This document shows, piece by piece, positions 15,896 through 44,543 of a stretch of 64,000 bases of DNA. The notes beneath the pieces were generated by a model that was given only the letters and a program-made list of their open reading frames with translations, searched no databases and had not been told where the DNA came from. Position numbers and translations under genes: made by a program. Numbering within the stretch: the first letter of the stretch is position 1; each line of letters starts with the position of its first letter. Origin of the DNA: Duganella sp. 1224 (GTDB lineage: Bacteria > Pseudomonadota > Gammaproteobacteria > Burkholderiales > Burkholderiaceae_D); contig NZ_JACBYS010000001.1 in NCBI RefSeq assembly GCF_013408245.1, positions 1,054,001 through 1,118,000 on the forward strand, written 5' to 3'.

Positions 15896-15974
15896 CGGGG
15901 TCAGGTCCTCCATTTCTACACGGCCTCAACCGCGTTGCGGTTGAGGCCGTGTAGAAATGGAGGACCTGACCCCG
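15896..15974. repeat. 79-bp perfect palindromic hairpin, copy 1 (relA/gst junction)
   Basis: Two 38-bp arms pair without mismatch around a 3-base GTT loop. The arm begins CGGGGTCAGGTCCTCC and continues with ATTTCTACACGG. It starts 3 bp after the relA stop and ends 4 bp before the gst stop, so it fills the whole convergent gap. It is identical to copy 2 and shares all but its tip with copy 3. A bidirectional terminator or a REP/MITE-like element is possible. Confidence 0.95.
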
Positions 15975-15978
15975 TCTT

Positions 15979-16578
15979 TTATGCGTGCGCTTGCTCTGCG
16001 GCCAGCGTGGCGGGGCGCGCGGCGACGCGTTTTGTGTGGCTGGCGATGGCCGGCCATTGGTCCAGGCTGATGTCAAAGAAGCGGAACCAGCCCAGGACGG
16101 TGTACAGATAAGCATCGGCGACGGTGTAGCTGTCGCCCACCAGCCATGCTTGCCGCTGCAGCGTGGTGTCCAGTATCGGCACGCGGCGGAGCAGGCGCTC
16201 GCGGACGATCGCCTGAGCGGCTTCGGGCAGGTCGCTGTTAAATAGCGGCGTGATGCCGGCGTGGATCTCGCTGGTGATGAAGTTCAGCATTTCCTGCAAC
16301 CGTACACGCGGCCAGCTGCCGGGCGGCGGAGCCAGCCTTGCCTCCGGCTTCAGGTCGGCCAGATATTGAAGGATGACCGGTCCTTCCGTCAGAATTTCTC
16401 CATTGTCCAGTTCCAGTGCCGCCACGTAGCCTTTCGGATTGATGGTGCGAAAGTCCCTGTTGTCAGCGGTGCGCTTGGTGTGGTTGTCGACCTTGATTAA
16501 TGCATGCGGCAGGCCCAGCTCGTGCAGGACGATCAGCGGCGACAGCGAGCAGGTCTGCGGTGCGTAATACAGCTTCAT
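15979..16578 (-). CDS. Glutathione S-transferase, beta class
   Basis: The 199-residue protein has an N-terminal thioredoxin-fold domain and an all-helical C-terminal domain. The start MKLYYAPQTCSLSP places Cys10 where beta-class bacterial GSTs bind glutathione. The cis-proline segment YVAALELDNG and the ILTEGPVILQYLA motif complete the glutathione site. The C-terminal WLVGDSYTVADAY carries the N-capping box. It diverges from a LysR regulator across 92 bp, so regulation by that protein is likely. The stop TAA lies 4 bp from a 79-bp palindrome. Confidence 0.92.
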   Translation of the reverse strand: MKLYYAPQTCSLSPLIVLHELGLPHALIKVDNHTKRTADNRDFRTINPKGYVAALELDNGEILTEGPVILQYLADLKPEARLAPPPGSWPRVRLQEMLNFITSEIHAGITPLFNSDLPEAAQAIVRERLLRRVPILDTTLQRQAWLVGDSYTVADAYLYTVLGWFRFFDISLDQWPAIASHTKRVAARPATLAAEQAHA

Positions 16579-16670
16579 TGTGGCTTCCTTTCATGGTGAG
16601 CCGTCACTGTAGCCAGCGCGCCGGTCCGCTGTAAAATGAATACTTCAGAAACTATCTATCAGTTTTTCTA

Positions 16671-17534
16671 ATGATGAATTTGGGCCATTGGCGCTTGCTG
16701 GCCGCAGTGGCGGACTTGCGCAATATCTCGCGCGCTGCGGAGCAGGTCGGCTTGTCGCAGTCTGCTGCCAGTCAGGCGATTGCGCAGATGGAAGCGTCGC
16801 TGGGCGCACCCCTGCTGGTGCGTGAGAAACGGGAGGTCAGCCTGACGGCGTTCGGCGAGCAGGTAATGCGGCATGCGCGCACCATGCTGTCGGAATTCGA
16901 CGCGATCCGCGCGCTGGGCGACGCGGCGCGCGGCCTGCAGGCCGGCCGCATCCGGCTGGCGACATTTCCGTCGGTGTTGGCCACCGTGTTGCCGGGACTG
17001 CTGGCGGCGTTCAGGCGGCGTCATCCCGGCATCGATGTGGTGGCGCTGGAGGGGACGGATGAGGAGGTGGAGGCGTGGCTGGCGGCCGATACGATCGAGC
17101 TGGGCGTGGTGCTGAATCCGGCGCCGCAACGCGAGGCGGTGATCATCGGCCGCGATGCATGGGTGGCGCTGCTGCCGGCGCAGCATGCGCTCGGGCGCCG
17201 CTCCAGCGAACAGGGCGTGACGTGGCAGGAGCTGGCCGACCAGCCGTTTGTGCTGGCCACCGGCGGCTGCGATGTCCACGCGCAACGTCTGGCGCAGCAG
17301 GCCGGCGTGACGCTGGCCGATATTCGCGTCACGGTCCGTGATCTGGCCAGTGCCGCGGTGCTGGTGCGCGAGGGCTTGGGCGTGTCTGTGATACCGGAAT
17401 CAGCCTTGCCGCAGGACCAGCGCGGCTTGCGGATGATGCAATTGCAGCCGCGGCTCTATCGCGAATTCGGCCTCGTGTGCTCTCGCGCCGGCCGCGCTTC
17501 GCCGGCGGTGCAAGCGTTCCTGCGCGAGTTGTAA
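16671..17534 (+). CDS. LysR-family transcriptional regulator
   Basis: The 287-residue protein has the N-terminal LysR helix-turn-helix (about 3-60; ISRAAEQVGLSQSAASQAIAQ) and a periplasmic-binding-like effector domain. It diverges from gst. In the shared 92-bp promoter, AGAAACT (16647-16653) faces AGTTTTTCT (16661-16669) as an imperfect inverted repeat that could be its site. The first ATG at 16671 is followed directly by a second, and either may be used. The effector is unknown. The end carries a duplicated TAACTCCG just before copy 2 of the long palindrome. Confidence 0.92.
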   Translation: MMNLGHWRLLAAVADLRNISRAAEQVGLSQSAASQAIAQMEASLGAPLLVREKREVSLTAFGEQVMRHARTMLSEFDAIRALGDAARGLQAGRIRLATFPSVLATVLPGLLAAFRRRHPGIDVVALEGTDEEVEAWLAADTIELGVVLNPAPQREAVIIGRDAWVALLPAQHALGRRSSEQGVTWQELADQPFVLATGGCDVHAQRLAQQAGVTLADIRVTVRDLASAAVLVREGLGVSVIPESALPQDQRGLRMMQLQPRLYREFGLVCSRAGRASPAVQAFLREL

Positions 17535-17545
17535 CTCCGTAACTC

Positions 17546-17624
17546 CGGGGTCAGGTCCTCCATTTCTACACGGCCTCAACCGCGTTGCGGTTGAGGCCGT
17601 GTAGAAATGGAGGACCTGACCCCG
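17546..17624. repeat. 79-bp perfect palindromic hairpin, copy 2 (lysR/cat junction)
   Basis: The 38-bp arms and GTT loop are identical to copy 1. The flanks also match: ACTCC on the left and GTCTTTTATGC on the right, the latter containing the stop codon of the leftward gene. With copy 1 it brackets the 1.57-kb gst/lysR pair. Confidence 0.95.
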
Positions 17625-17628
17625 TCTT

Positions 17629-18270
17629 TTATGCCATTGTTTGGGCGATGCGGGTGGCGATCGCTTGGGCCAGCAGGTGGACGTGGTAGCCGTCGACGAA
17701 GCCGTGGTGGGCTTGCACGGCCATGGTCATGGTCAGCTTGCCGTCGTCGCGCGGGGCGCTGTAGCGGCCCCAGGCCAACGAGGGGATGTCGTAGGTCTTG
17801 TGCTCGTAGATCGGGTGTTCGATCGCGGACAGCTTTAGCCACGGCATGCAGGTGATGTAGATGTTGCGGCGCTGCTCGTATTCGCTGAGGCCTTCGGCCG
17901 TGTTGATCAGCTTGGTGGAGGTTGCCGCTTGCTGGGCTGCAGCGACGCTGCGGGCGATGAACTCGTTCAGGTCGTCGGTCATCACGAAGCGCGCGAAGTT
18001 GAGGTTGTGGTCCTGGTTGAGCACGGTATACGAGGCCCAGAAGTCGTCGATCTTGATCACTTCGCCCTGGTAGATACGGTACATGTAGTTGTCGATGCCC
18101 TTGATCGCATGCAGCACGTGGTACAAGAAGAAGTGGAAGCTCGGCAGCCCGCGCGCTTTGCAGTAAGGCCGGAAGTCCGGCACTTCCAGCTCGAAGCTCA
18201 GGTTGACCAATGGGTTTTCGAACGACGCAAAAGCGTTGTATCGGTCGCGGCGTTTTTCAAAATTCTGCAT
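17629..18270 (-). CDS. Chloramphenicol acetyltransferase-family protein (type A)
   Basis: The 213-residue protein is of the CAT fold, which transfers acetyl from acetyl-CoA to hydroxyl groups. The catalytic motif HHGFVDGYH (His188-His189, Asp193) matches the HHxxxDGxH signature. NPLVNLSFELEVPDF and the RYSAPRDDGKLTMTMAVQ stretch are typical, and length is normal for trimeric CATs. Whether it acts on chloramphenicol cannot be decided; many chromosomal homologues have other or unknown acceptors. It is a single gene between the palindrome at its 3' end and a serine-hydrolase operon. Confidence 0.88.
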   Translation of the reverse strand: MQNFEKRRDRYNAFASFENPLVNLSFELEVPDFRPYCKARGLPSFHFFLYHVLHAIKGIDNYMYRIYQGEVIKIDDFWASYTVLNQDHNLNFARFVMTDDLNEFIARSVAAAQQAATSTKLINTAEGLSEYEQRRNIYITCMPWLKLSAIEHPIYEHKTYDIPSLAWGRYSAPRDDGKLTMTMAVQAHHGFVDGYHVHLLAQAIATRIAQTMA

Positions 18271-18317
18271 AGATGGCGTGGTTCATTCGTGAGGCGACAG
18301 CATTATAGCGGTCGGCC

Positions 18318-19361
18318 TCATTTCGGCAGCGTCGCTCCCAGCAGGTCATACGCAAACTCGTCCATCGTTTTTTGCGACAGGTCGGTGTTGTTGAGGATGA
18401 TGACTGTTTCTTCGCCGTCGAGGCGGTGGCCAAGGACGGCGCGGTAGCCGCCGGTGCGGCCGGTTTCCCAGGCGTAGGTGTGGCGCTGGCCGTTGCGCTC
18501 CAGCGTTTTGACGCGGCCGCCCAGCGTGTAGTTTTCGCTCGGCACTTCAATGTGCGTCATCGCTTGCAGCGATTGCGGACTGAGGAAGCCGCCGTTGAAG
18601 ACGGCGCGGGCGGCGTTCAGGAGGTCGGTGGCGCTGCTGTAGTAGCCGCCGGAGGCCACCATGTAGTGCTGGTGCGCGTCCACCTTGCGCGCCGGCGGCT
18701 GGATGGTGGCGTAGGCTTCGGCCGCGCCGGCACGGTCGGTGCTGGTGGCCGACAGGTTCAGCGGATCAAGCGTGATGGCGCGCATCGCTTGCTGGTAGGG
18801 CATGCCGGTCGCTGCTTCGATGATGCCGATGACGATGTACCAGTTGGTCGAGACGTAGTCGAAGCGGCTGCCGGGTGGGAAGATCAGCTCGCCCGAACAG
18901 AAGCGGTCGATGGCCTGGCGCGTGGTCAGCGGCAGGAAGCGTACTTCCGGATCGGCTTTCAGCGCCGGCGTAAACTGGTTGGGAATGCCGCTGGCGTTGG
19001 ATAGCAGGTGCCGCAACGTTACCTTGTCGGCGCCGTCTGCGCGATACCACGGCAGCAGCTTGCCGATGGTGACGTCCAGGTCCAGCTTGCCGCTTTCGAC
19101 CAACTTGAGCACGGTGGTGGTGGTCAGCCACTTGGAGATGGAGCCGACGGCAAAGCGCGTGTCCTCGCGCACCGGCGTGCCGTCTTCAATGTTCGACAGC
19201 CCGAAGGTTTGTACGGACACCGGCATCCCGCGCCGCGCCAGCATGACGAGGCCGTAGAAAGGCTGCCTGGCGGCGAAGGCTTCGGCGACCGGGTTGTTGG
19301 CGAAGGCGCTGGCGCCCAGTAGCGTGGCGGCGCTGCCGCACAGGAAGTGGCGTCGTTTCAT
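18318..19361 (-). CDS. Serine hydrolase, beta-lactamase/D-Ala-D-Ala carboxypeptidase-like, Tat-exported
   Basis: The 347-residue protein is of the class C beta-lactamase-like family (S12). The leader KRRHFLCGSAA contains a twin-arginine-like RRxFL motif, so folded export is likely. SISK is the SxxK nucleophile motif, YVST stands at the YxN position, and a glycine-rich TGGY occurs in place of KTG. Substrates in this family range from peptidoglycan peptides to esters and D-amino-acid peptides; none can be chosen here. It overlaps the upstream serine-hydrolase gene by ATGA, so the two are translationally coupled. Confidence 0.88.
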   Translation of the reverse strand: MKRRHFLCGSAATLLGASAFANNPVAEAFAARQPFYGLVMLARRGMPVSVQTFGLSNIEDGTPVREDTRFAVGSISKWLTTTTVLKLVESGKLDLDVTIGKLLPWYRADGADKVTLRHLLSNASGIPNQFTPALKADPEVRFLPLTTRQAIDRFCSGELIFPPGSRFDYVSTNWYIVIGIIEAATGMPYQQAMRAITLDPLNLSATSTDRAGAAEAYATIQPPARKVDAHQHYMVASGGYYSSATDLLNAARAVFNGGFLSPQSLQAMTHIEVPSENYTLGGRVKTLERNGQRHTYAWETGRTGGYRAVLGHRLDGEETVIILNNTDLSQKTMDEFAYDLLGATLPK

Positions 19362-20335
19362 GGAGGCGTGTCGAGAATGGCTTGCAGGATGGCGGCGGAG
19401 CGGCGCTGGCCGTAGCCCTTGCCATAGGCGCTGGAGGTCACCACCACCACCGACCGCGAGGCGGGAATCACGTAGATCTTGTTGCCGCCGTTGCCGGAGG
19501 CGAAATGCACGACGGTGTTGCCGTATGTCTTCTGGTACCAGAAATAGCCGTAGTGGTCGGCGTAGCGGTCCACCTCGCCAATGGCCACGCGCGGCGCGAG
19601 CGCGGCTCGCAGCCAGGCGGCGCTGATCACGCGGCGGCCCTGGTACATGCCCTGGTCCAGCACCATCTGGCCGATGCGGGCCAGGTCGCGCGTGCGCAGG
19701 AACAAGTTGCCCTGGCCCTTGGGATGATGGGCGGCGTCACGCAGCCATTGCCAGCGCGTGATGCCGAGCGGCGCGAACAGCGCTTCGCGCGCGAACGCTT
19801 CCAGGTCCATGCCGGTCGCCTGTTCGATGGTGATGCCGGCCACGTACGAGGTCAGCGAGTTGTAGCGGTAGCGGGTGCCGGGCGTGGCGTCGGCCGGCAC
19901 CGCCAGCGCGAAGGCGATTGGATCGGCGGCCTCGTCCAGTTTGTCCTCGTTGCCGGGCGAGGCGGGGTCCTCGTCGAAGGCGGCCAGGCCGGAGCGCATG
20001 GTCAGCACCTGGTCCAGCGTGACGCCTTGCAGCGCCGTGCCTTTGGCGGCGGGCCAGTAACTGTCGATGCGGCCGTCCGGGCTGAGTTTGCCACGGTCGG
20101 CGGCCGCGCCGACCAGCAGGGCGGTGATGCTTTTGCCGGCCGAGCGGATGTCGTGCAGCGTGTCGGCGGTTTCGCCGTTGTAGTAGCGCTCGGCGACGAT
20201 GACGCCGTCGCGCATCACCAGCACGCTGCGCAGGTCGGGATGTTGGTCGCGATCCCAGCGTGCCAGCACCTCCTCCAGTGGCTGCGCCAGCGCGGGCAGG
20301 GCGGTCAGCAGCAGCAGGCACAGAAGTTTTTTCAT
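19358..20335 (-). CDS. Serine hydrolase, beta-lactamase-related, Sec-exported
   Basis: The 325-residue protein starts at MKKLLCLLLLTALPALAQ, a clear Sec signal peptide; the frame is open for 67 more codons upstream but that part lies within the CDF gene. Motifs are SAGKS (SxxK), YNS (YxN type) and HFASGNGG (HxG type), giving the expected order of the S12/AmpH-like family. The gene follows the CDF exporter by 5 bp and overlaps the next hydrolase by four bases. Paralogy with the downstream gene is distant. Substrate unknown. Confidence 0.9.
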   Translation of the reverse strand: MKKLLCLLLLTALPALAQPLEEVLARWDRDQHPDLRSVLVMRDGVIVAERYYNGETADTLHDIRSAGKSITALLVGAAADRGKLSPDGRIDSYWPAAKGTALQGVTLDQVLTMRSGLAAFDEDPASPGNEDKLDEAADPIAFALAVPADATPGTRYRYNSLTSYVAGITIEQATGMDLEAFAREALFAPLGITRWQWLRDAAHHPKGQGNLFLRTRDLARIGQMVLDQGMYQGRRVISAAWLRAALAPRVAIGEVDRYADHYGYFWYQKTYGNTVVHFASGNGGNKIYVIPASRSVVVVTSSAYGKGYGQRRSAAILQAILDTPP

Positions 20336-20340
20336 GGCGA

Positions 20341-21276
20341 TCAGTAAGGGGCTTTGCCTTGCGGCGCGACTTCCGCCTGCAGCGTGGTGTGATCGATGCC
20401 GTGCTTTTCCAGCAGCATGGCCTTGATGCGGTGGAGGATGTCCGGCCAGCGCGCCAGATCGGTGATTTCGACGTGGCCTATCAGCGCCGGTTCGCCCGGC
20501 GACATATCCCACACGTGCAGATCGTGCACCGAGCACACGCCTTCCACCTGCTCCAGGTCGGCGCCGACCTTGATGTAGTCGATCTGCTCGGGCACGCCGC
20601 CCATCAGGAAGTGATAGGACTCGCGCAGCACGCCGACAGTCGAGCGCAGTATCAGCAGCGCCACGAACAGCGACAGCAACGGGTCGATCTGCATCCAGCC
20701 GGTGTAATAGATCACCGCGCCCGATACCAGCGCCGCCACCGAGCCAAGCAGGTCGCCCAGCACGTTGACCAGCGCCGCCCGCGTATTCATATTGCTATCG
20801 CCGCGCGACAGCAGCCAGGCCAGCACCAGGTTCACCGCCAGGCCGATGCCGGCGACGATGAACACGGTGGCGCCATGTACCTGTTCCGGACGCGAGAAGC
20901 GGCTCAGCGCCTCGTAGCCGATCCAGCCGACCAGCAACAGCAGTACCAGGCTGTTGACGAACGCCGCCAGCGCCTCGGCGCGGCCGAAGCCGAACGAGTG
21001 GCGCGCCGATGGCGGCCGCTTGGCGATGACCTGCGCCAGCAGCGCCAGGCCGAGCGCGGCGGCGTCGGTGACCATGTGGCCGGCGTCGGAAATCAGCGCC
21101 AGCGAATTGGACATGAAGCCGGTCACCACTTCCACCACGGCGAAGCCCAGCGTCAGCAGCAGCGACCACGCCAGCACCGACTGGCTGCGCTGCACGGTGT
21201 AGTGTTTATAGCGGGCGTCGCCGGCGCGGTGTTCGTGCAGATGGGCGGACGGCGAGGGCGAGGTGTGTGCTTGCAT
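20341..21276 (-). CDS. Cation diffusion facilitator (ZnT/CzcD-like metal exporter)
   Basis: The protein has six transmembrane helices and a C-terminal cytoplasmic metallochaperone-like domain (from about residue 215; VHDLHVWDMSPG). Metal-site motifs are SDAGHMVTDA in helix 2 (HxxxD) and NVLGDLLGS in helix 5. The His-containing N-terminus HLHEH fits Zn/Co/Cd transporters of the CzcD/ZitB branch. I chose the ATG at 21276 (311 residues) because the segment after it starts like CzcD. An ATG at 21330 in the same frame would add 18 residues; neither has a good ribosome site. It is first in an operon with two serine hydrolases. Confidence 0.9.
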   Translation of the reverse strand: MQAHTSPSPSAHLHEHRAGDARYKHYTVQRSQSVLAWSLLLTLGFAVVEVVTGFMSNSLALISDAGHMVTDAAALGLALLAQVIAKRPPSARHSFGFGRAEALAAFVNSLVLLLLVGWIGYEALSRFSRPEQVHGATVFIVAGIGLAVNLVLAWLLSRGDSNMNTRAALVNVLGDLLGSVAALVSGAVIYYTGWMQIDPLLSLFVALLILRSTVGVLRESYHFLMGGVPEQIDYIKVGADLEQVEGVCSVHDLHVWDMSPGEPALIGHVEITDLARWPDILHRIKAMLLEKHGIDHTTLQAEVAPQGKAPY

Positions 21277-21378
21277 GGACGGCTTGTCGAATGGGAATAG
21301 CAATAGTGTAATGTATGTCCGCCCGGCCATGGTTTGATGTCTTCATAGGAGAAATAGAAATGTTTCCGATGATTACCC

Positions 21379-21407
21379 TTGTTTTTCTTCCGATCGCTCT
21401 CTATAAT
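21379..21407 (+). promoter_or_regulatory. Sigma-70 promoter of the tRNA-Val pair
   Basis: TTGTTT (21379-21384), 17 bp, then a perfect TATAAT (21402-21407), followed 10 bp later by the first tRNA. The gap from 21277 to 21417 contains nothing else obvious. Confidence 0.8.
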
Positions 21408-21417
21408 GCTGGTCTTC

Positions 21418-21494
21418 GGGCGGTTAGTTCAGCTGGTTAGAATACTTGGTCGACATCCAAGGGGTCGGGGATTCGAATTCCTCACCGCCCACCA
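21418..21494 (+). tRNA. tRNA-Val (anticodon GAC), copy 1
   Basis: The 77-nt cloverleaf includes an encoded CCA. The acceptor GGGCGGT/ACCGCCC pairs fully, the D stem is GTTC/GAAT, the anticodon stem is CTTGG/CCAAG and the T arm is GGGGA-TTCGAAT-TCCTC. The anticodon loop reads TCGACAT, placing GAC at 34-36 and so decoding GUC/GUU. Position 33, nearly always U, is C here. Confidence 0.92.
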
Positions 21495-21531
21495 GAATTC
21501 GTAGTAAAGCAGTACAATTGAGCAGGTCAAC

Positions 21532-21608
21532 GGGCGGTTAGTTCAGCTGGTTAGAATACTTGGTCGACATCCAAGGGGTCGGGGATTCGAATTCCTCACC
21601 GCCCACCA
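21532..21608 (+). tRNA. tRNA-Val (anticodon GAC), copy 2
   Basis: It is identical over all 77 nt to copy 1, 114 bp downstream, with a 37-bp spacer. C33 is present again. The two are probably co-transcribed from the promoter at 21379. Confidence 0.92.
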
Positions 21609-21718
21609 GTATATGTAAGAGCGAGAAAGGCAATCACGGTTATGACACCGCGAACTACTACCAAGCTTTGGGAGTGACGCTAGTCAACGGGATTCTTTTG
21701 CTTGAAGAAAAGAGAAAA

Positions 21719-21742
21719 ACGCGGCTAGCCCGCGTTTTTTTT
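21719..21742 (+). terminator. Rho-independent terminator after the tRNA pair
   Basis: ACGCGG (21719-21724), a 5-base loop, CCGCGT (21730-21735) and a run of eight T. It separates the tRNA transcript from thrS. Confidence 0.85.
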
Positions 21743-21791
21743 CGTCTGCATTTTTTAAACACCGGCCCGCGCGCCGGCATTGGAGATCACC

Positions 21792-23699
21792 ATGATTTCA
21801 GTTCGCCTTCCTGATGGTTCCGCCCGTGAATTCGACGGTCCAGTCACCGTTGCTCAAGTGGCGTCCAGCATCGCCACCAGCCTCGGCAAGGCCGCGCTGG
21901 CTGGCAAGGTCGACGGTAAAGTCGTCGATACGTCCTACCTGATCGACAAGAACGTCGATCTGGCCATCGTCACCGACAAGGATCCAGAAGGCCTGGATGT
22001 GATCCGTCACTCGACCGCGCACTTGCTGGCCTACGCCGTCAAGGAATTGTTCCCGGACGCGCAAGTGACCATCGGCCCGGTCATCGACAACGGTTTCTAC
22101 TACGACTTCTCCTACAAGCGCCCGTTCACGCCGGACGACCTGGTCGCCATCGAAAAGAAAATGACCGAGCTGGCCAAGAAGGACGAGCCGGTCACCCGCA
22201 AGGTGCTGCCGCGCGACGAGGCGGTTGCCTACTTCAAATCCATCGGCGAAGACTACAAGGCGGAAATCATCGCTTCGATTCCGGCAGGCGAGGACGTGTC
22301 GCTGTACAGCGAGGGCAACTTCACCGACCTGTGCCGCGGTCCGCACGTGCCATCGACCGGTAAGCTGAAAGTCTTCAAGCTGATGAAGCTGGCTGGCGCC
22401 TACTGGCGCGGCGACAGCAAGAACGAGATGCTGCAGCGGGTCTACGGCACCGCCTGGGCGAAAAAGGAAGACCAGGAGCAGTACCTGCACATGCTGGAAG
22501 AGGCGGAGAAGCGCGACCACCGCAAGCTGGGCAAGCAGCTGGACTTCTTCCACTTCCAGGACGAGGCGCCGGGCCTGGTGTTCTGGCATCCGAAGGGCTG
22601 GACCATCTGGCAGCAGGTGGAGCAGTACATGCGCAACAAGTACCAAGTCAACGGCTACCAGGAAGTCAAGGCGCCGCAGATCCTGGACGCCAGCCTGTGG
22701 GGCAAGACCGGCCACTGGGACAACTACCGCGAAAACATGTTCGTCACCGAATCGGAAAACCGCTCGTACGCGCTGAAGCCGATGAACTGCCCGGGTCACG
22801 TGCAGATCTTCAACAGCAACATGCGTTCGTACCGCGACCTGCCGCTGCGCTACGGCGAGTTCGGCCAGTGCCACCGCAACGAGCCGTCGGGCGCGCTGCA
22901 CGGCATCATGCGCGTGCGCGGCTTCACCCAGGACGATGGCCACATCTTCTGCACCCACGAGCAGATCCAGCCGGAAGTGGTGGCTTTCCACACGCAAGCG
23001 ATGGAAGTGTATTCGGATTTCCATTTTCATAACATCGAGGTCAAGCTGGCGCTGCGTCCGGACAACCGCATCGGCTCGGACACCATCTGGGACGAGGCCG
23101 AAGAGGCGCTGCGGGCCGGCCTGCGCGCCTGCGGCGTGACCTGGACCGAGCTGCCGGGCGAGGGCGCGTTCTACGGTCCGAAGATCGAGTACCACCTGAA
23201 GGATTCGCTGGGCCGCCCATGGCAGGTCGGCACCATGCAGGTCGACTTCTTCATGCCGGAGCGCCTGGGCGCCGAGTACGTGGCGGCCGACAACACCCGC
23301 CAGGTGCCGGTCATGCTGCACCGCGCGATCGTCGGTTCGATGGAGCGTTTCATCGGCATCCTGATCGAAAACTATGCGGGCGCGCTGCCGGCGTGGCTGG
23401 CGCCGGTGCAGGTTTCGGTGCTCAACATCTCCGATGCGCAGGCCGAATATGTCTCCCAAGTGGCTGAAAAGCTGCGTCGCAGCGGGTTCCGCGTACAGAC
23501 CGATTTGCGCAACGAGAAAATAAACTATAAAATACGTGAACATTCCGTCCAAAAACTGCCGTACATCCTCGTGGTGGGCGACAAGGAGCGGGATGCCAAC
23601 ACCGTCGCCGTGCGGGCACGGGGCAATGTCGATCTGGGCGTCATGTCCGTCGATGCCCTGATAGAGCGACTTCAGCAAGACGTCGCCACCAAGGCCTGA
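21792..23699 (+). CDS. thrS: Threonine-tRNA ligase
   Basis: The 635-residue class II synthetase charges tRNA-Thr. Domains in order: TGS (1-60, [17 protein letters not shown]), the editing domain with the zinc-type HSTAHLLA motif (about 75-80), catalytic core with [12 protein letters not shown], then the C-terminal anticodon domain. The ATG at 21792 has GGAG about 8 bases upstream; a TTG four codons earlier is in frame but less suitable. It heads the classical thrS-infC-rpmI-rplT-pheS-pheT-ihfA order, with 38 bp before infC. Confidence 0.97.
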
Positions 23700-23737
23700 G
23701 CGCACTGGCATTTCATTAGATTTTAAAAGGAATCACC

Positions 23738-24259
23738 ATAGCTACTGACAAGTCGCATCGCATCAATGGCGAAATCACTGCCCCTGAAATGCGTTTAACT
23801 GGGGTCGATAACGAGCCGCTCGGTATCGTGACTTTGGCCGAAGCCTTCCGCCTCGCGGAAGAGGCAAACGTCGACCTGGTGGAAATCGCGCCTAACGCGA
23901 ACCCGCCGGTCTGCCGTTTGATGGACTACGGCAAATTCAAGTATTCGGAGCAGAAAAAGGCTCACGAAGCGAAATTGAAGCAAAAAGTCATCTCCGTGAA
24001 GGAAGTCAAATTCCGTCCGGGTACCGATGACGGCGACTACAATATCAAGCTGCGTAACCTGATCAAGTTCCTGGAAGACGGTGACAAAACCAAGATCACC
24101 CTGCGCTTCCGCGGCCGCGAGATGGCGCACCAGGATATTGGTTTCCGTATGCTGGAACGTCTGAAGGCCGACCTGGAGCCGCATGGCCAGGTCGAGCAGT
24201 TCCCGAAAATGGAAGGCCGTCAGATGATCATGGTGCTGGCGCCGAAGAAAAAGAAGTAA
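23738..24259 (+). CDS. infC: Translation initiation factor IF-3, AUA start
   Basis: The 173-residue factor prevents premature 50S joining and checks initiator-tRNA/codon pairing. The reading frame [13 protein letters not shown] begins at an ATA codon at 23738, with AAGGA six bases upstream. No ATG, GTG or TTG exists in frame until ATG at 23789, which would delete the conserved RINGEI N-terminus. A non-canonical start (AUU in E. coli) is the known basis of IF-3 autoregulation, because IF-3 itself rejects such codons. Both IF-3 domains are intact and the end (MVLAPKKKK) is normal. Confidence 0.95.
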
Positions 24260-24296
24260 CCCACGGCCGCCCCAACGGGTGTGCTGCCGCGATTGT

Positions 24297-24326
24297 AGGG
24301 TCAGACCCCGTACGGGGTCTGACCCT
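24297..24326. repeat. 30-bp perfect palindrome between infC and rpmI
   Basis: AGGGTCAGACCCCGT joins its exact reverse complement with no loop. TTT follows on the + strand, so it may terminate or pause infC transcription. It ends 3 bp before the -35 of a promoter for rpmI. The GGGTCAG core is shared with the long palindromes elsewhere in the window. Confidence 0.9.
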
Positions 24327-24329
24327 TTG

Positions 24330-24686: not shown

Positions 24687-24711
24687 TCTCACACTCATTT
24701 AAGGAGCTACT

Positions 24712-36214: not shown

Positions 36215-36215
36215 C

Positions 36216-37415
36216 ATGCGCCGCCTCTCCGTTGTGCGCCGCGTGGCCGGCTTCTCGCTGGTGGAGCTGATGGTCAGCGTGGTGATCGGCATGCTGGCCA
36301 TCCTGTTCGCCACGCGGCTGGTCATCGGCGGCGAAAAGAGCAAGGATGGCGCGGTCGGTGGCTCCGATTCGATGCAAAACGGCATGCTGGCGCTGTACTC
36401 GATCAGCAACGACGCCGCGCAAGCCGGCTGGGGCATCAACGACCCGCTGGCGGCCGGCTGCCAGACCAGCTTCAGCGACACCGGCGGCTACGCGCTGGCG
36501 CAGATCAGCGTCGGCGGCGTCACCCGCACGCCGCTGGCGGCCGCCGTGATCCAGCCCGGCGGCAGCGGGCCGGACGTGATTTCGCTGTACGCCGGCAAAT
36601 CCGCCGCCGCCGTCGGTTCGCTGCGCACCAACGGCGCCATCGCCGCTGGCGCCGCCGTCTTGCCGACCACCACGCTGTCGCCGTTCGGCTTCGCCGCTGG
36701 CGACGTGCTGCTGGTGGTACCGGAACCGGCCACCGCCGCCAATCCGTCCTGCTCGATCGTGCAGATGAGCGGCGCCTTGCCCGCGCCTAACAACGACACG
36801 CTCACCCTGGGCAGCGGCAATAGCTTCCGCTTCGGCCCCGCTGGCGGCATCGCCAACGGCTACGCCCAGGGCGGCGGCCGCATCTTCAATCTTGGGCCGG
36901 CGGCGCGGCTGTCCTTCCATACGTGGTCGGTGGCCGGCGGCAACCTGCTGCTGCGCGCCACCGACCTGGCCGGCGCCGGCGCGCAGGGCGTGGCGGTGAC
37001 CGACAACATCGTCTCGATCAAGGCCCAGTACGGGCTGGACACGCGCACCTTCGCCGTCTACAACCCGCTGCCGGCGCCGGACGGTAATGGCGTGCAACTG
37101 ACCCAGTGGAGCAACACCATGATCGACGCCGACGGCGACCTTACCGTGGCCGGTCCCGGCGACTTCCAGCGCGTGGTGGCGCTGCGGCTGGCGGTGGTGG
37201 CGCGCAGCAAGCATCCCGAGCGGCCGGGCAGCGATGGCCATTGCCACACGGCTAACGCCCAGCCGGTGGTGTTCAACACGGCGGTGGGCGGGGCGGCGGC
37301 GGTGCCGGTCAGCGTCAATGTCGCCGTGGCCGGCGATCCGGTCGCCTGGCAGTGCTATCGCTACCGGGTGTTTGAAACCGTGGTTCCGGTGCGCAACGCG
37401 CAATGGAGGCCGTGA
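36216..37415 (+). CDS. pilW: Type IV pilus minor pilin PilW
   Basis: The 399-residue prepilin has a leader ending VAG and the helix FSLVELMVSVVIGMLAI. The large globular domain is typical of PilW, which with PilV and PilX forms the tip-priming complex. The C-terminal VAWQCYRYRVFETVVPVRN is a frequent PilW ending. The stop overlaps the pilX ATG in TGATG. Confidence 0.9.
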   Translation: MRRLSVVRRVAGFSLVELMVSVVIGMLAILFATRLVIGGEKSKDGAVGGSDSMQNGMLALYSISNDAAQAGWGINDPLAAGCQTSFSDTGGYALAQISVGGVTRTPLAAAVIQPGGSGPDVISLYAGKSAAAVGSLRTNGAIAAGAAVLPTTTLSPFGFAAGDVLLVVPEPATAANPSCSIVQMSGALPAPNNDTLTLGSGNSFRFGPAGGIANGYAQGGGRIFNLGPAARLSFHTWSVAGGNLLLRATDLAGAGAQGVAVTDNIVSIKAQYGLDTRTFAVYNPLPAPDGNGVQLTQWSNTMIDADGDLTVAGPGDFQRVVALRLAVVARSKHPERPGSDGHCHTANAQPVVFNTAVGGAAAVPVSVNVAVAGDPVAWQCYRYRVFETVVPVRNAQWRP

Positions 37416-38026
37416 TGCCGCGCCGCCCATCGTCGCCTCTGCCGTTGTTGCCGCGCCAGCGCGGCGTCGCCTTGCCGGTGATCCTGATCATGCTGACGGT
37501 GATGCTGGTGACCAGCATCTACCTGCTGCGCGCCAGCACCTCGACCACGCTGACCGTGACCAACCTGGCCTACGACGCCGCGCTCAGCAAGGAGGCCGAC
37601 CTCGGCGTGCACGCCGCCTTCGAGTGGCTGTCGCAGCCCACCACCAAGGCGCTGCTGCTGGCCGACAGCCCGGCCAACGGTTACGTCGCCAGCGTCAATC
37701 CGGTCTGGACCGTCAGCACGCCGGCCTTCTGGACCGGTTCGGTAACGGTTGATCCGGTGGGCGGCGGCAGCCGGGTGGAATACGTGATTCACCGCATGTG
37801 CACATTTGCGGGCGCCTACAACGCCACCACGCCCGCCGCCAACAGCTGCATGCTGAGCGCGGCGAAGCAGGGCGTGGCGGCGCCGGTGGCGCTGGGCTCC
37901 AGCCTGTCGCAGAACGCGCCGCAGTACGACGGCCAGCCGCAACTGCACTACGTGATCACCGCGCGCATCTTCGGGCCGCGCGGCGGCAACGTGGTGGTGC
38001 AGTCGGTCGTGATGATGGGGCCGTGA
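37415..38026 (+). CDS. pilX: Type IV pilus minor pilin PilX
   Basis: The 203-residue protein has a basic N-terminus and the PilX-type helix GVALPVILIMLTVMLV; as in other PilX proteins, position 5 of the mature chain is not a glutamate of the usual kind. I chose the ATG at 37415, which has GGAGG five bases upstream and overlaps the pilW stop; an ATG four codons earlier is in frame. PilX lies just before pilY1 and links it to the priming complex. Confidence 0.85.
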   Translation: MPRRPSSPLPLLPRQRGVALPVILIMLTVMLVTSIYLLRASTSTTLTVTNLAYDAALSKEADLGVHAAFEWLSQPTTKALLLADSPANGYVASVNPVWTVSTPAFWTGSVTVDPVGGGSRVEYVIHRMCTFAGAYNATTPAANSCMLSAAKQGVAAPVALGSSLSQNAPQYDGQPQLHYVITARIFGPRGGNVVVQSVVMMGP

Positions 38027-38093
38027 GGCGCGGCCGGCAGCCTGCGCAGGTCGCGGGCGGCAATTGGCGATTTTTGAAATGGATGATCGAATC

Positions 38094-41000
38094 ATGAAAT
38101 ACCCACTGTCCCTGATGGCCCGCCGCGCCTTGCTGCCGTTGATGCTGCTGGCATCGGCGGCGGCGCTGGCCGCCGCCACGCAGATCGCCCAGGTGCCGCT
38201 GCTGAACATCACCGGCACCGGCACGGTCAAGCCCAACCTGATGCTGCTGTTCGATAACTCCGGCTCGATGGACCAGGCTTACACGCCGGACTACGTGGAC
38301 GACGCCATCTGCCGCGGCGGCGCCACGCTGGCCGCCAGCGCGGTCAGCTGCTCGCCCGGCCATCCGCCGTACATGACGTCCGACTTCAACAAGCAGTACT
38401 ACAACCCGGCCATCCTGTACGCGGTGCCGGTACGCGCCGACGGCAGCCTCTACCCGTCCCAGACCGCCGCCAACACCAGCAACTGGGGCAACGTCAGCAA
38501 CGACGGCTTTGGCGTCCGCTACAGCGTGCTGGGCGGCAGCGCCAGCAGCACCGCCTCCTCGGTCAACCTGGTGACCGGCTTCCCCGATCTGCGCTGGTGC
38601 AACCCGAACAACAACAGCGACTGCGGCGTCAACACCACCACCTACACCTACCCGGACGCCAGCCACACCTCGGCCAGCGCCATCTACGGCGCGCCGTACT
38701 ACTACACCATCGGCGTGACCGAGTACTGCACCGACGATACCATGACCGTGTGCCGCACCACCTCGGCCGGCGCCGGCGCGCCGCCCAACTATCCGGTGCC
38801 GGTCAAGGTCCGCTGGTGCAACGACAAGACGCTGACCAATTGCCAGGCCAAGCAGGTGGGCGCGTTCAAGTATCCGCGCTATTCGACCTCGGCCGGCTCG
38901 GTGGCGGCCTACGCCACCATCGCCATCGGCACCTCGGCCAGCACCGGTTCGCTGTCGGTCAGCAGCGTCAGCATCAATGAAAACGGCAGCAACGTCACGC
39001 TGACGTCCGGTGCCGTGACGGCTGCGGGCGGCACCACCACCGCCATCAACCGCCAGGCCATGGCCAGCGCGCTGGCGTCGAACATCAACAACAACGGCGC
39101 GGCCACGCAATACCTGGCCTGCGTGCGCACGCCCACCGGCGTCAGCAATGTGCCGACCTGCGCCAGCCTCGGCATCACGCTGAGCGCGGACAACATCGTT
39201 GCCGTGGTGGCGGTCGATTGCACGGCCACGCCCAAGAGCGCCGCCACCTGCCCGCGCATTTTCGACGCCTCGCGCGCCGGCTACGCGCTGACCGTGGCCA
39301 CCTCGCCATCGGCGGCGGTGCCGTCGACCGCGCTGCTGACCATCAGCGGCACCGCCGCCAATTCGTTGCTGCTGTTCACCACCGTCAAGCTCGACAGTAC
39401 GACGCTGGCCAACAACATCTCGATCCCGCGCAACGCCAGCGCGGCCACGGCGGCCAGCGCCATCGTCAACGCCATCGGCACCGGCGCCAACGTGCGCGCC
39501 TACGTCGGCGGCAACAACGTCACGACGATCTGCGGCGCCGCCACCAACCGCAGCGTTTGCCTGGTGAACGTGGCGGCCACCGGCAATGGGCAGGTGCCGT
39601 CCGCCTCGGCCGTGTCCGGGCTGACGTTCAGCGCCACCAACAGCGCCGGCTACGCCGACACCATCCCGATCACCACCGCGCCGATGTCGGGCGGCTCGAC
39701 CGGGCCGAGCAGCTTCACCCGCGTCAACATTGTTTCCGGCAGCACCTATCCGAAGGGCAGCGACCGCACCGACTGCGTGGCCCAGGCCGGCGTCTGCACC
39801 TACCAGGAGGAGATGACCAACTTCGCCAACTGGTACGTCTACTACAAGACGCGCCTGCAAATGATGAAGACCTCGGTGGGCATCGCCTTCTCGGCGCTCA
39901 ACGCCAACTACAAGGTCGGCTATGCCAGATTGTCGGTGGCGGCCACCGGCGGCGCCATGGACATGGTACCGACCGACTTCACCGGCACCTCGCGCAGCAC
40001 CTGGTACACCAAGCTGTACGGCACCACCACCTCGGGCTCGACGCCCAGCCGGCCGGCGATGGACAGCGTCGGCCGCATGTTCGCCAACGTCACGCCCTAC
40101 CAGTACGCGGCCGGGCAGGAGGTGGTGCAGTTCCCGTGCCAGCAGAACTTCCTGATCTTCACCACCGACGGCTACTGGAACGGCGGCTCGACCCGCGACT
40201 ACGGCGACGGCTATTCGCCGATCGTCAACAACGACAACGTCGAAAGCACCACGCGCTTTTGCAGCTACGCGGCCGGCTGCGTTGACATCCGCGCGCAAAG
40301 CCAGCCGTCGCTGGCCGACGTTGCGCTGCACTGGTACAACGGCGGCTCCAGCACCGGCACCGTGTCGCTGCGGCCGGCGCTGGAGCCGAACATGAACAAG
40401 CCCGGCTCGGTGCCGGCGCGCTCCGGCGAAAACACCCACTTGCACATGAACACCTACACGCTGGGCCTGGGCGTGGACGGCGTGATGAACTACGACCCCA
40501 ACTACGACACCACCGCGCGCAAGGTCGGCGGCGACTTCTACAACCTGATCACGCGGGTGCAGACCGGCTGCCCATGGAACAACAACGGCCCCTACGTGTG
40601 GCCGAACCCGGACGTGACCAACACCGGCAACACGGTGCAGGAGCGGGTGGACGACCTGTGGCACGCCGCCGTCAACGGCCACGGCAAGTACTTCAGCGCC
40701 TCGCAGCCGAAGGAGGTGGTGGCCGGACTGAGCGAGGCGCTGTCGAACATGCAGATCCGCCTGGGCGCCGCCGCCGCGGCGGCCACCTCGACGCCCAATA
40801 TCTCGGTGCAGGACAACGACATCTTCTCGGACACCTTCACCACCGTCAAATGGTATGGCGAACTGTCGGCGCGCAAGATCAACGCCTCGACCGGCGAGGT
40901 CGGCACGGCGGTCACCTGGACCAGTTCGGACACCGTCGGCCGCAATCCCGGCGCCACCGGCCCGGCCGGGCGCGTCATCAAGATGCTGGACACCAGCAAT

Positions 41001-42716
41001 GGCGGCCTGAAGGAAGTCAGCTACGACAACATGAGCGCGCTGGAGAAGAGCTGGTTCAGCAACAAGTGCACGGCACTGGCGCAATGCACGCTGCTCACCT
41101 CGGCAGAGCGCGACACCGTCAACAACGGCGTCAACCTGGTCAACTGGCTGCGCGGCGCCCAGACCTATGCCGACGACCGCCTGTTCCGCGCCTACACGCT
41201 GACCGACCACACGCCGGCCGGCCTGAGCGGCCCGATTCCGATCGTGCTGGGCGACATCGCCTCGTCCAAGCCGGCCTACCTGCGCGACGCCCGCAAGAGC
41301 TACACCCGCGCCGGCTACGCCAGCTTCAAGGCCGGCACGCAGACGCGGCCGGCCACCGTGTTCACCGCCGCCAACGACGGCATGCTGCACGCCTTCGACG
41401 CCAGCAACGGCAACGAGCGCTGGGCCTACATGCCGCGCATTACGATGAAAAAGCTGTACCTGCAGGCCAGCACCACCTACGGCACCAACCACCAGTTCAC
41501 CACCGACGGCGCGCCCGAACTGGGCGACGTGCAGATTGGCGGCGTGTGGAAAACCGTGCTGGTGGCTGGCCTCAACGGCGGCGGACGCGGCTACTACGCG
41601 CTGGACGTGACCGACCCCACCAATCCGGTCGCGCTGTGGGAACTGTGCGCCGACAGCGCCATCTGCAGCCGCAACGACCCCGACCTCGGCCTCAGCTTCG
41701 GCAACCCGCAATTTGGCCTGTGGAACAACCAGTGGGTGGTGTTCCTGACCTCTGGCTACAACAACGTGCCAGGCACGGACGGCGTCAACACCGGCAGCGG
41801 CCAGGGCATCCTGTACATCGTCGACGTCGCCACCGGCGCGGTGCTCAAAAAAGTCTCGACGCTGACCGGCGACACCACCACGCCGTCCGGCCTGGCCAAG
41901 ATCACCGCCATCAGCAGCGACCCCAACCTGGACCCGGTCACCACCTACATCTACGGCGGCGACGTCAACGGCCGCATGTGGCGCTTCGACCTGACCGACA
42001 GCACCGGCGCCACCGTGCCGGTGGTCAAGATGGGCGACGCCGGCACCAGCAAGCCGATCACCACGCGGCCGGACGTGACGCTGTGCGCCATGACCAGCAG
42101 CAGCACCGACGCCGGCGTCACCAGCAGCGCCACCACCGCCCAGCGCGTGGTGTTGTTCGGCACCGGCCGCCTGCTGGACGTGCCGGATACCACCAACACC
42201 GACGTCCAGAGCCTGTTCCTGCTGAAGGACAGCGGCGCCACCATCAATGTGCGCGGCGCCAGCATGGTGCAGCAGACGCTGAGCCAGGTCGGCACCAGCA
42301 GCAACATTACCTTCGCGCTGAGCAGCAACCCGGTCGACCTGAGCCAGAGGGACGGCTGGTTCTTCGACTGGAGCGTGACGCCGGGCGAGCGCATGAACCT
42401 GGACCCGCAGATCGTCAGCGGCGTGGCCAACGTGGTGACCAACCTGCCGTCGTCGTCGTCGGCCTGCTCGGTGGGCGGCACCAGCAACGCCTACCAGGTC
42501 GACATCTGCACCGGCAACGCGCTGCCGAACACGCCGGCCGGCACCATCCTGTCGTCGGACTCGGCGGCGGTGGGCTTCATCATCTACCGGTTGCAGAATG
42601 GCCAGCTGAAGATGACCACCACGCTGGCCACCGGCGTCACCAAGACCACCCAGCTGCAGGAAGGCAAATCGGCCGAGGCGCACCGGGTCGGCTGGCGGCG
42701 GGTGCAGGGGGAATAA
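38094..42716 (+). CDS. pilY1: PilY1, type IV pilus tip adhesin and assembly factor
   Basis: The 1,540-residue secreted protein has a Sec signal peptide (1-28), and near residues 50-65 LMLLFDNSGSMDQ, a von Willebrand A-type metal-binding segment. A large low-conservation middle is rich in Thr/Ser/Ala. A C-terminal PilC/PilY beta-propeller runs from about residue 1,040 (FTAANDGMLHAFDASNGNE, then VLVAGLNGGGRGYYALDV and YIYGGDVNGRMWRFD). PilY1 sits at the pilus tip, is needed for pilus extension, and binds surfaces and calcium in Pseudomonas. The start ATG at 38094 directly precedes the signal peptide. Confidence 0.93.
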   Translation: MKYPLSLMARRALLPLMLLASAAALAAATQIAQVPLLNITGTGTVKPNLMLLFDNSGSMDQAYTPDYVDDAICRGGATLAASAVSCSPGHPPYMTSDFNKQYYNPAILYAVPVRADGSLYPSQTAANTSNWGNVSNDGFGVRYSVLGGSASSTASSVNLVTGFPDLRWCNPNNNSDCGVNTTTYTYPDASHTSASAIYGAPYYYTIGVTEYCTDDTMTVCRTTSAGAGAPPNYPVPVKVRWCNDKTLTNCQAKQVGAFKYPRYSTSAGSVAAYATIAIGTSASTGSLSVSSVSINENGSNVTLTSGAVTAAGGTTTAINRQAMASALASNINNNGAATQYLACVRTPTGVSNVPTCASLGITLSADNIVAVVAVDCTATPKSAATCPRIFDASRAGYALTVATSPSAAVPSTALLTISGTAANSLLLFTTVKLDSTTLANNISIPRNASAATAASAIVNAIGTGANVRAYVGGNNVTTICGAATNRSVCLVNVAATGNGQVPSASAVSGLTFSATNSAGYADTIPITTAPMSGGSTGPSSFTRVNIVSGSTYPKGSDRTDCVAQAGVCTYQEEMTNFANWYVYYKTRLQMMKTSVGIAFSALNANYKVGYARLSVAATGGAMDMVPTDFTGTSRSTWYTKLYGTTTSGSTPSRPAMDSVGRMFANVTPYQYAAGQEVVQFPCQQNFLIFTTDGYWNGGSTRDYGDGYSPIVNNDNVESTTRFCSYAAGCVDIRAQSQPSLADVALHWYNGGSSTGTVSLRPALEPNMNKPGSVPARSGENTHLHMNTYTLGLGVDGVMNYDPNYDTTARKVGGDFYNLITRVQTGCPWNNNGPYVWPNPDVTNTGNTVQERVDDLWHAAVNGHGKYFSASQPKEVVAGLSEALSNMQIRLGAAAAAATSTPNISVQDNDIFSDTFTTVKWYGELSARKINASTGEVGTAVTWTSSDTVGRNPGATGPAGRVIKMLDTSNGGLKEVSYDNMSALEKSWFSNKCTALAQCTLLTSAERDTVNNGVNLVNWLRGAQTYADDRLFRAYTLTDHTPAGLSGPIPIVLGDIASSKPAYLRDARKSYTRAGYASFKAGTQTRPATVFTAANDGMLHAFDASNGNERWAYMPRITMKKLYLQASTTYGTNHQFTTDGAPELGDVQIGGVWKTVLVAGLNGGGRGYYALDVTDPTNPVALWELCADSAICSRNDPDLGLSFGNPQFGLWNNQWVVFLTSGYNNVPGTDGVNTGSGQGILYIVDVATGAVLKKVSTLTGDTTTPSGLAKITAISSDPNLDPVTTYIYGGDVNGRMWRFDLTDSTGATVPVVKMGDAGTSKPITTRPDVTLCAMTSSSTDAGVTSSATTAQRVVLFGTGRLLDVPDTTNTDVQSLFLLKDSGATINVRGASMVQQTLSQVGTSSNITFALSSNPVDLSQRDGWFFDWSVTPGERMNLDPQIVSGVANVVTNLPSSSSACSVGGTSNAYQVDICTGNALPNTPAGTILSSDSAAVGFIIYRLQNGQLKMTTTLATGVTKTTQLQEGKSAEAHRVGWRRVQGE

Positions 42717-42785
42717 GTTGCTGTCGGCGGGGCCAAGAGCCGGTATAATCGAGGGTTTGCAGAACCGCCTCAGATCGCTCACACA

Positions 42786-44453
42786 ATGGTCAACGATACC
42801 GAAAACACAATCCCCGAGAACAATGACGACGCCGTCGCGGCGGCGTCCAGCGCCAAGACGCCGGCCCTGATCGCGCGCGAAGTGCAGCGCCGCCGCACGT
42901 TCGGCATCATCTCCCACCCGGACGCGGGTAAAACCACGCTGACCGAAAAACTGCTGCTGTTCTCGGGCGCGATCCAGATGGCGGGCACGGTCAAGGCGCG
43001 CAAATCGGGCCGCCACGCCACCTCGGACTGGATGGAAATCGAGAAGCAGCGCGGCATTTCGGTGGCCTCGTCGGTGATGCAGTTCGAATTCCGCGACCAC
43101 GTGGTCAACCTGCTGGACACCCCCGGCCACCAGGACTTTTCGGAAGACACCTACCGCGTGCTGACGGCAGTCGACTCGGCGCTGATGGTGATCGACGCCG
43201 CCAAGGGCGTGGAAGCGCAGACCATCAAGCTGCTGGACGTGTGCCGCATGCGCAACACGCCAATCGTCACCTTCATGAACAAGATGGACCGCGAAACGCG
43301 CGATCCGCTGGAACTGCTGGACGAGCTGGAATCGGTGCTGAAGATCAAGTGCGCGCCGGTGACGTGGCCGATCGGCATGGGCAAGAACTTCCGCGGCGTG
43401 TACCACCTGCTGAACGACACCATCATGCTGTTCAAGGCCGGCGAGGAGCGCGCCGACGGCGCCTTCGAGCTGATCGAAGGCATCGACAACCCGCGCCTGC
43501 AGGAAATGTTCCCGCTGGAGATGGACCAGCTGCGCATGGAAGTGGAACTGGTGCACGGCGCCTCCAACCCGTTCGACCTGGAGCAATTCCTGGCGGGCGT
43601 GCAGACGCCGGTGTTCTTTGGCTCGGCGATCAACAACTTCGGCGTGCGCGAGATCCTGTCGGCGCTGGTCGACTGGGCGCCGGCGCCGCGCGAGCGTGAC
43701 GCCACGGTGCGCGCGGTCGATCCGAAAGAAGAACCGTTCACCGGCTTCGTGTTCAAGATCCAGGCCAATATGGACCCGGCGCACCGCGACCGCATCGCCT
43801 TCCTGCGCGTGTGCTCGGGCCGCTTCGAGCGCGGCATGAAGGTCAAGCACCTGCGGCTGGGGCGCGAGGTCAAGGTATCGTCGGTGGTGACCTTCATGGC
43901 ATCGACCCGCGAGCAGGTGGAAGAAGCGTACGCCGGCGACATCATCGGCCTGCCGAACCACGGCAACATGCAGATTGGCGACTCGTTCTCCGAAGGCGAG
44001 CAGCTGACGTTTACTGGCATCCCGTTCTTCGCGCCGGACTTCTTCCGCCAGGTGCGCATCCGCAACCCGCTGAAAATCAAGCAATTGCACAAGGGCCTGC
44101 AACAGCTGGGCGAAGAAGGCGCGGTGCAGGTCTTCAAGCCGGTGCAAGGTGGCGAGCTGGTGCTGGGCGCGGTCGGCGTGCTGCAGTTTGAAGTGGTGGC
44201 CAGCCGCCTGATGAACGAATACGGCGTTGACGCGGTGTTTGAAAGCACCAGCATCAGCAGCGCGCGCTGGGTATCGAGCGAGGACAAGAAAGCGCTGGCC
44301 GACTTCGAAGCGGCGCTGGGCCACAACGTCGCCTACGACGCCGCCGGCAACCTGGCCTACCTGGCCACGTCCGGCGTCAACCTGCGCCTGACGCAGGAGC
44401 GCTGGCCCAAGCTGCAATTCCACGCCACCCGCGAACACTCCGCCAAGCTGTAA
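42786..44453 (+). CDS. prfC: Peptide chain release factor 3
   Basis: The 555-residue GTPase recycles RF1/RF2 from the ribosome after termination. G1 is [14 protein letters not shown]3 [13 protein letters not shown]4 NKMD. RF3-type domain II and III segments such as [14 protein letters not shown] and [15 protein letters not shown] are present. An N-terminal extension of about 30 acidic residues precedes [10 protein letters not shown], which is longer than the E. coli protein. The stop is 4 bp from a long palindrome shared with two other convergent junctions. Confidence 0.97.
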
Positions 44454-44457
44454 ACTC

Positions 44458-44543
44458 CGGGGTCAGGTCCTCCATTTCTACACGGCCTCTACCGTACGCG
44501 AGCGTACGGTAGAGGCCGTGTAGAAATGGAGGACCTGACCCCG
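44458..44543. repeat. 86-bp perfect palindromic hairpin, copy 3 (prfC/nnrD junction)
   Basis: The 41-bp arms pair exactly around CGAG. The outer 31 bases of each arm equal copies 1 and 2. The tip differs: CCTCTACCGTACG replaces CCTCAACCGC, with matching change on the other arm. It again fills the gap between two convergent stop codons. Confidence 0.95.

Follow-up and report, generated by a model that had tools for sequence, protein, structure and literature searches.

Background

Hairpin-forming repeats dispersed through bacterial genomes have been described together with transposases of the RAYT type (REP-associated tyrosine transposases; REP, repetitive extragenic palindrome). In the 'TIRtrons' of PMC3733652 (2013), RAYT-like genes for 'TIRYT' transposases carry long terminal inverted repeats (TIRs) sharing GGGGWSAS, and according to the same paper REP ends supply stop codons. 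Cleavage of GTAG REPs by TnpAREP is reported in PMC8266576, and models of REPIN persistence are given in PMC8049555. The present report concerns three long palindromes in a 64,000-nucleotide stretch of Duganella sp. 1224 (contig NZ_JACBYS010000001.1, positions 1,054,001 to 1,118,000; hereafter the window), the hairpin family to which they belong and a RAYT gene with the same ends located outside the window.

The hairpin family belongs to the TIR/TIRtron kind as that kind is presented in PMC3733652. Common features are a RAYT-like gene between long inverted repeats that are not of REP type, ends fitting GGGGWSAS (GGGGTCAG) and dispersed copies that are moderately abundant, many of them dimers. 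Perfection to the tip, placement behind TAA with empty sites in relatives and apparent rewriting of arms at orthologous loci are not among the TIRtron features given in the portion of that paper drawn on here, and its main text makes no mention of Janthinobacterium or Massilia. REPINs (Bertels and Rainey 2011, PMC3116915) are likewise hairpins of two inverted ends and a spacer, linked to a RAYT and showing compensatory stem changes; they differ in a placement that the paper calls random in extragenic space. REPs and REPINs also have a GTAG or GTGG head, which the ends described here lack. In the RAYT-REP pairs (Nunvar 2010, PMC2817692) the rayt locus is fixed, the repeats flanking orthologues differ yet stay palindromic and RAYT correlates with repeat number, as here; those repeats flank gammaproteobacterial rayt genes, and the present material also includes dispersed orthologous copies. 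The idea of gene conversion is old, as the title of Higgins 1988 ('evolution by gene conversion?') indicates. A search of the open-licence literature found no paper joining REP or REPIN repeats with concerted evolution. The strict placement and the proposed in-place rewriting at dispersed loci were not encountered in the literature searched, in so far as its content was available.

Results

The palindromes are interpreted as hairpins mobilised by a RAYT-type (Y1, HUH) transposase, set behind TAA stop codons and rewritten in place in their outer arms, a reading to which we give a probability of about 0.7. In what follows G000 is the Duganella sp. 1224 genome (6.1 Mb), the other G numbers are relatives in a set of 74 genomes of the genus, L numbers are hairpin loci and C numbers are contigs.

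Three perfect palindromes were returned by an inverted-repeat search of the window (arms of at least 18 nt, at most 60 nt apart), the two remaining pairs being imperfect and of 19-21 nt. Copy 1 (15896-15974) has arms of 38 nt (15896-15933 and 15937-15974) and the tip GTT. Copy 2 (17546-17624), also with 38-nt arms (17546-17583 and 17587-17624) and a 3-nt tip, repeats the arms and the tip of copy 1 exactly and has the same right flank, GTCTTTTATGC. Copy 3 (44457-44544) has 43-nt arms (44457-44499 and 44502-44544) separated by 2 nt, another tip and an inner stem unlike that of the other copies on both arms. Copies 1 and 2 are 1.65 kb apart, and given their common tip and right flank one of them may have arisen from the other. 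Just before copy 2, at 17532-17547, TAACTCCG is tandemly duplicated. The outer arm GGGGTCAGGTCCTCCATTTCTACACGGCCTC of copy 1 (15897-15927, plus strand) agrees in its first 26 nt with both termini of a transposase element at G000:C1:1636547-1637488.

In that element one arm pair spans 942 nt and encloses an open reading frame (ORF) of 278 amino acids; the inverted repeats around the ORF are perfect over 36 nt, for a total span of 954 nt. The product matches Y1_Tnp of Pfam (E 2e-11), and its best NCBIfam model is REP_Tyr_transpos NF047646, at 72.6 bits and below the cut-off of 80. The motifs NHxH and RYIVLNPVRA are invariant among the RAYTs aligned, 14 of the 15. They correspond to the HUH and catalytic Tyr motifs, and on Pfam and the alignment the RAYT has a Y1_Tnp domain with both. 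No solved structure matches it at E 0.001. The locus is syntenic in 14/14 relatives on the right flank and in 13/14 on the left, thus the gene sits still. In relatives the RAYT ends are mostly GGGGTCAG and in some GGGGTCAAG. G000 also contains a second RAYT with different ends, GGGGTCAGTGCCGACATTCGGACA, and a decayed RAYT-like stretch (G000:C2:135397) around which the inverted-repeat search found no repeat.

The hairpins are dispersed through the genome. A 29-nt arm allowing up to 3 mismatches gave 40 and 39 matches on the two strands of G000, the reversed-pattern control gave none, and 42 hairpins have both exact 12-nt ends. The same palindrome stands at the ends of C8 and C13 (L037 and L039); these are probably one copy because locus L182 of G002 matches both flanks, and the palindrome probably broke the assembly between the two contigs. 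Pairing is perfect in 35 of the 40 hairpins examined, interrupted by one mismatch in 4 and by seven in 1; C10:12821, visibly imperfect, and C13:22994 are not among the 40. By consensus the family ends are ACTCC-GGGGTC, with GTAG only near the tip and in part of the copies. The RAYT element and the hairpin copies have the ends GGGGTCAG, which the search pattern required for most copies. Rfam assigned no family to the hairpins. A second hairpin family of G000, with the ends of the second RAYT, comprises 21 hairpins with GGGGTCAGTGCC ends. By eye, G000 hairpins whose outer arms differ can have modules of the inner stem in common, for example CACGAGC..CAACCGTAG, as though the outer arms could be swapped. 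In G057 and G058, unlike G000, most copies pair only over the outer 25 nt or so and the inner part is non-palindromic.

Hairpins of the family occur in 19 of the 74 genomes. At least 8 hairpins were found in 13/15 genomes with a full-length RAYT orthologue of at least 60% identity and in 0/59 others (Fisher 1e-12), both thresholds having been chosen after the data were seen. A partial RAYT match of 64% in G053 is accompanied by no hairpins. Among the matches listed (named genomes), the end pattern is most frequent in Duganella and is also present in Massilia, Rugamonas, Rubrivivax, Haliea and several uncultured lineages. Since the ends are shared and the hairpins co-occur with the RAYT, spread by this enzyme is likely. 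The sequence-only reading had named, among its options, a non-coding mobile element of REP type or MITE type (miniature inverted-repeat transposable element) preferring gene ends, and the dispersed copies, the empty orthologous sites described below and the RAYT-type gene with the same ends support this; a comparison with the MITE of a DDE element differs in the associated enzyme, which is Y1 and not DDE.

For 39 loci of G000 (leaving out L069, C10:12821 and C13:22994), the position of the copies was read from genes predicted in stretches of roughly 2-7 kb by a home-made dicodon method, in which gene starts are rough. The hairpin starts within 20 nt behind a stop codon in 35/39 copies, 28 of them at 3-6 nt, against 10.5% of intergenic positions at the same loci. 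Exceptions are L042 and L054, at divergent junctions, L048, called inside a gene, and L037, at a contig end. Stops on both sides were found for 15/39 copies against 0.46% of intergenic positions. The adjacent stops are TAA in 47/50 cases versus 40/107 for other genes at the same loci (Fisher 2e-12), a comparison in which L001 and L003 overlap and a few genes are counted twice. The behind-stop placement is repeated in three relatives (25/27, 16/18 and 13/15 copies; one copy in each of the first two sets has flanking genes whose predicted extent reaches 39 nt into the hairpin) and is weaker in G058 (8/13). An excess of convergent placement as such was considered and dropped, because convergent gaps hold 3507 of the 9290 intergenic nt of the window and 15/39 is unremarkable by that yardstick. 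What the copies prefer is not convergence but a place on the 3' side of a TAA stop, whatever the orientation. The sequence-only reading had placed the palindromes exactly between convergent stops, which describes the three window copies and only 15/39 genome-wide.

Orthologous gene ends were read in 29 relatives. The gap of copy 1 (relA/gst) was readable on both sides in 14/29: 6 are gapless, the stops overlapping as TTAA or CTAG, 4 have 5-11 nt, 3 have hairpins of other families and 1 has 554 nt of other DNA. The gap of copy 2 (lysR/acetyltransferase) is absent in 12/14 readable relatives, 9 of them with TTATGA or CTATGA, and is occupied by an other-family hairpin in 2. The lysR stop is TGA in 9/12 gapless relatives and TAA in G000. 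The gapless or otherwise occupied sites at these two junctions indicate that the hairpins are insertions. At the junction of copy 3 (prfC/nnrD), readable in 12/29 relatives, 4 have GGGGTCAG hairpins, one of them with the same arm type, 6 have 8-34 nt and 2 have other DNA. In the empty sites that were read, TAA is often already there. At another gene end, L051, hairpins of GGGGTCA type with several arm versions are present in 16/29 relatives; in 10 of the 13 others the stem score exceeds the largest of 20 shuffles, a weak control made by shuffling one sequence of about 265 nt that includes coding DNA. Three relatives (L234, L245 and L248) have at L051 a different intergenic hairpin repeat, GTC..CCCGCGAAAGCGGG..-like.

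The two arms of a hairpin change together. Across 23 copies of 84 nt (18 distinct), 12/40 pairs change on both sides and none on one side, with 99.7% of cells paired; slid controls gave 1-3 pairs. Joint change of both arms had been read from copy 3 alone and is now seen on the larger set. Between G002 and G007, where 15 orthologous pairs were compared at a mean flank divergence of 3.7%, the raw arm changes are 20 two-sided and 29 one-sided, 19 of the latter due to a one-base deletion in L178; without the indel pair L178/L208 (14 pairs) they are 19 and 10. The outer-arm letters 13-15 differ in 11/15 pairs, and in 9 of these (not L178 and L184) the arms are equal in both copies; exceptions without change at these letters include the L168, L172 and L179 pairs. 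The flanks of these loci are collinear with 91-99% identity. In 12/15 pairs the best match to a core among 18 copies is the core of its orthologue, and in 3/15 another copy matches slightly better. In two pairs, L171/L201 and L190/L193, the centre fits clearly better inverted. Six sites are occupied in all of G000, G002 and G007, and at every one of them the G000 hairpin has one or both arms unlike those of the other two genomes. The two arms of a copy agree with each other in 39/40 hairpins of G000, 25/27 of G002, 17/18 of G007 and 14/15 of G019; the maximum of 2000 shuffles is exceeded in G000, G002 and G007 and equalled in G019.

The arm letters partly match those of the resident transposase. 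The triplet at letters 13-15 of the RAYT arms is TCC in G000, CCC in G002, CTC in G007 and ATC in G023 (for which six of 31 hairpins were listed), and in G019 the two sides differ, one having TCC and the other CCC. Hairpins with the triplet of their own RAYT in both arms are 34/40 in G000 and 20/27 in G002, and G019 has 7 TCC and 7 CCC among 15 hairpins fetched of 18. Among five pairs compared between G057 and G058, two follow the RAYT of each species at position 13; a fifth is of doubtful orthology, its left flank being only 62% identical. In that fifth pair L291 (G057:C1:4139699-4139782) has arms of two families, TCCATTGC versus GACATTCGG.

The genes around the window copies were named from translations and the earlier annotation, presumably relA/spoT, gst, lysR, acetyltransferase, prfC and nnrD. 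Copy 1 lies between the TAA stop (15890-15892, plus strand; 3 bp upstream) of the relA/spoT-like ORF 13640-15892 and that of the gst-like ORF 15979-16578 (15979-15981, minus strand; TTA on the plus strand). Copy 2 lies between the TAA stops of the lysR-like ORF 16671-17534 (17532-17534, plus) and of the acetyltransferase-like ORF 17629-18270 (17629-17631, minus). Copy 3 follows the TAA stop of the prfC-like ORF 42786-44453 (44451-44453, plus) and precedes that of an nnrD-like ORF ending at 44546 (44546-44548, minus). The sequence-only reading had described mismatch-free arms, which hold with lengths of 38, 38 and 43 nt (41 had been given for the third), and gaps between convergent stops filled by the palindrome; the filling and the convergence stand, the margin being 1-11 bp per side instead of 3-11. 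Elsewhere in the window, at 57895-58091 on the minus strand, there are tandem glycine riboswitch aptamers (Rfam RF00504).

Discussion

The proposed mechanism is as follows. The RAYT likely cuts and moves the hairpins, with a TAA-containing sequence as the target: it would bind and cut GGGGTCAGGTCC-ended single strands, and the resident enzyme would move hairpins as single strands into sites directly behind TAA stops. After insertion the outer arms would be rewritten from other family members by gene conversion at short identical arms, perhaps started by transposase nicks, and the second arm would then be corrected from the first across the hairpin. We infer rewriting and arm-to-arm correction from the two-arm changes with retained cores. 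The population would thus drift with the transposase's own ends and each locus would keep its core; as a side effect, maybe a selected one, mRNAs would end in a strong hairpin whichever way the site is read. Palindrome-directed repair, suggested by the sequence-only reading, fits arms that are equal within a copy even with several arm types per genome; as repair inside single hairpins it leaves unexplained why arm letters are also similar from locus to locus in a genome.

Several observations weigh against this reading. Neither a transposition event was observed nor could a target-site duplication be fixed, the empty sites having no consistent duplication. Five genomes have 1-3 hairpins and no such RAYT orthologue; G047 has the RAYT and merely 2 hairpins; and the RAYT of G001 has other ends, with 0 hairpins in that genome. 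Only 8/18 hairpins of G007 match the RAYT triplet in both arms (5 are TTC and 3 CCC), and 5/40 of G000 are GCC and not TCC. The exact triplet of the own RAYT in both arms and both species was found in only 5/15 orthologous pairs, and 4 pairs have TTC in G007 though its RAYT has CTC. Pair L180/L207 is altered in one arm only, and two G057/G058 pairs of another arm type are without concerted change. Part of the covariation could be produced by selection for pairing plus relatedness, and selection on pairing alone might take the place of rewriting. In the most specific form of the proposal, the resident RAYT would act in trans so that dispersed 80-nt repeats evolve in concert and follow its flanking ends, only their outer arms being exchanged and the locus core kept, sometimes inverted. 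This form is regarded as tentative and rather improbable, its odds lowered by the exact match in only 5/15 pairs.

Another account takes these as ordinary RAYT-associated hairpins, found behind stops only because purifying selection removes insertions elsewhere, and with arms covarying locus by locus from a need to pair that the RAYT or the mRNA 3' ends would impose. Copies are indeed few inside genes (1/39) and at divergent junctions (2/39), the two settings that would have spoken against a gene-end preference; REPs prefer convergent or unidirectional junctions, where they supply stop codons, according to PMC3733652, and REPs at orthologous rayt genes change yet remain palindromic according to PMC2817692. 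Purifying selection alone would nevertheless spread copies over intergenic DNA, and not place 35/39 within 20 nt of a stop, nor are stops common among the available targets, making up only 83/558 (14.9%) of TAA sites at stops or in intergenic DNA. Altered outer-arm letters at 11/15 loci with 3.7% flank divergence are also hard to obtain locus by locus, and we consider this account doubtful. Somewhat better placed, although still short of an even chance, is the view that selection maintains the hairpins as bidirectional intrinsic terminators or protectors of mRNA 3' ends, a transposase having only a secondary part in their spread. Intrinsic terminators have a GC-rich stem behind the stop codon, usually far shorter than the stems found here. 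The three window hairpins fold on either strand at -83 to -97 kcal/mol (z about -15 to -17), hairpins of several kinds stand at L051, and the tails are T-enriched (mean 3.24 of 8 versus 1.56 in the background), an enrichment that comes partly from the adjacent TAA stops. At least 5 T of 8 are present in only 16/78 tails (background 1.4%), and in a set of 48 unidirectional copies, drawn from four genomes that are partly related, T is not clearly more frequent in the downstream tail than in the opposite one (3.69 versus 3.10, p 0.08). The hairpins differ from intrinsic terminators in being mostly without a T-tract and in forming a mobile family, and at relA/gst and lysR/acetyltransferase intergenic DNA is altogether absent in many relatives. 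A promoter and terminator scan of 14000-19500 counts at most 20 stem pairs and is blind to these stems, so its silence is no evidence.

Altered arms at orthologous loci might also reflect horizontal import or repeated re-insertion, and different families do hit the same gap in different species (relA/gst, prfC/nnrD and L051), with the 3/15 pairs whose core is slightly closer to another copy pointing the same way. The cores nearest to their own orthologue in the remaining 12/15, the collinear flanks and the absence of any megablast match to the hairpins in plasmid and phage collections make this very improbable.

Conclusions

To our knowledge it is an open question by what means REP-like repeats preserve their perfect pairing and their match to the transposase. 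The hairpin family makes the upkeep of such repeats testable: the loci of one species resemble each other in outer-arm letters and mostly differ in their cores, so that rewriting can be separated from re-insertion at single loci. If the coevolution of arms and transposase is true, the RAYT would favour GGGGTCAGGTCCTCC arms of its own species over CCC and CTC arms. The placement directly behind TAA stops points either to targeting by a rule under which genes are spared or to a recruitment of the repeats as gene-end hairpins.

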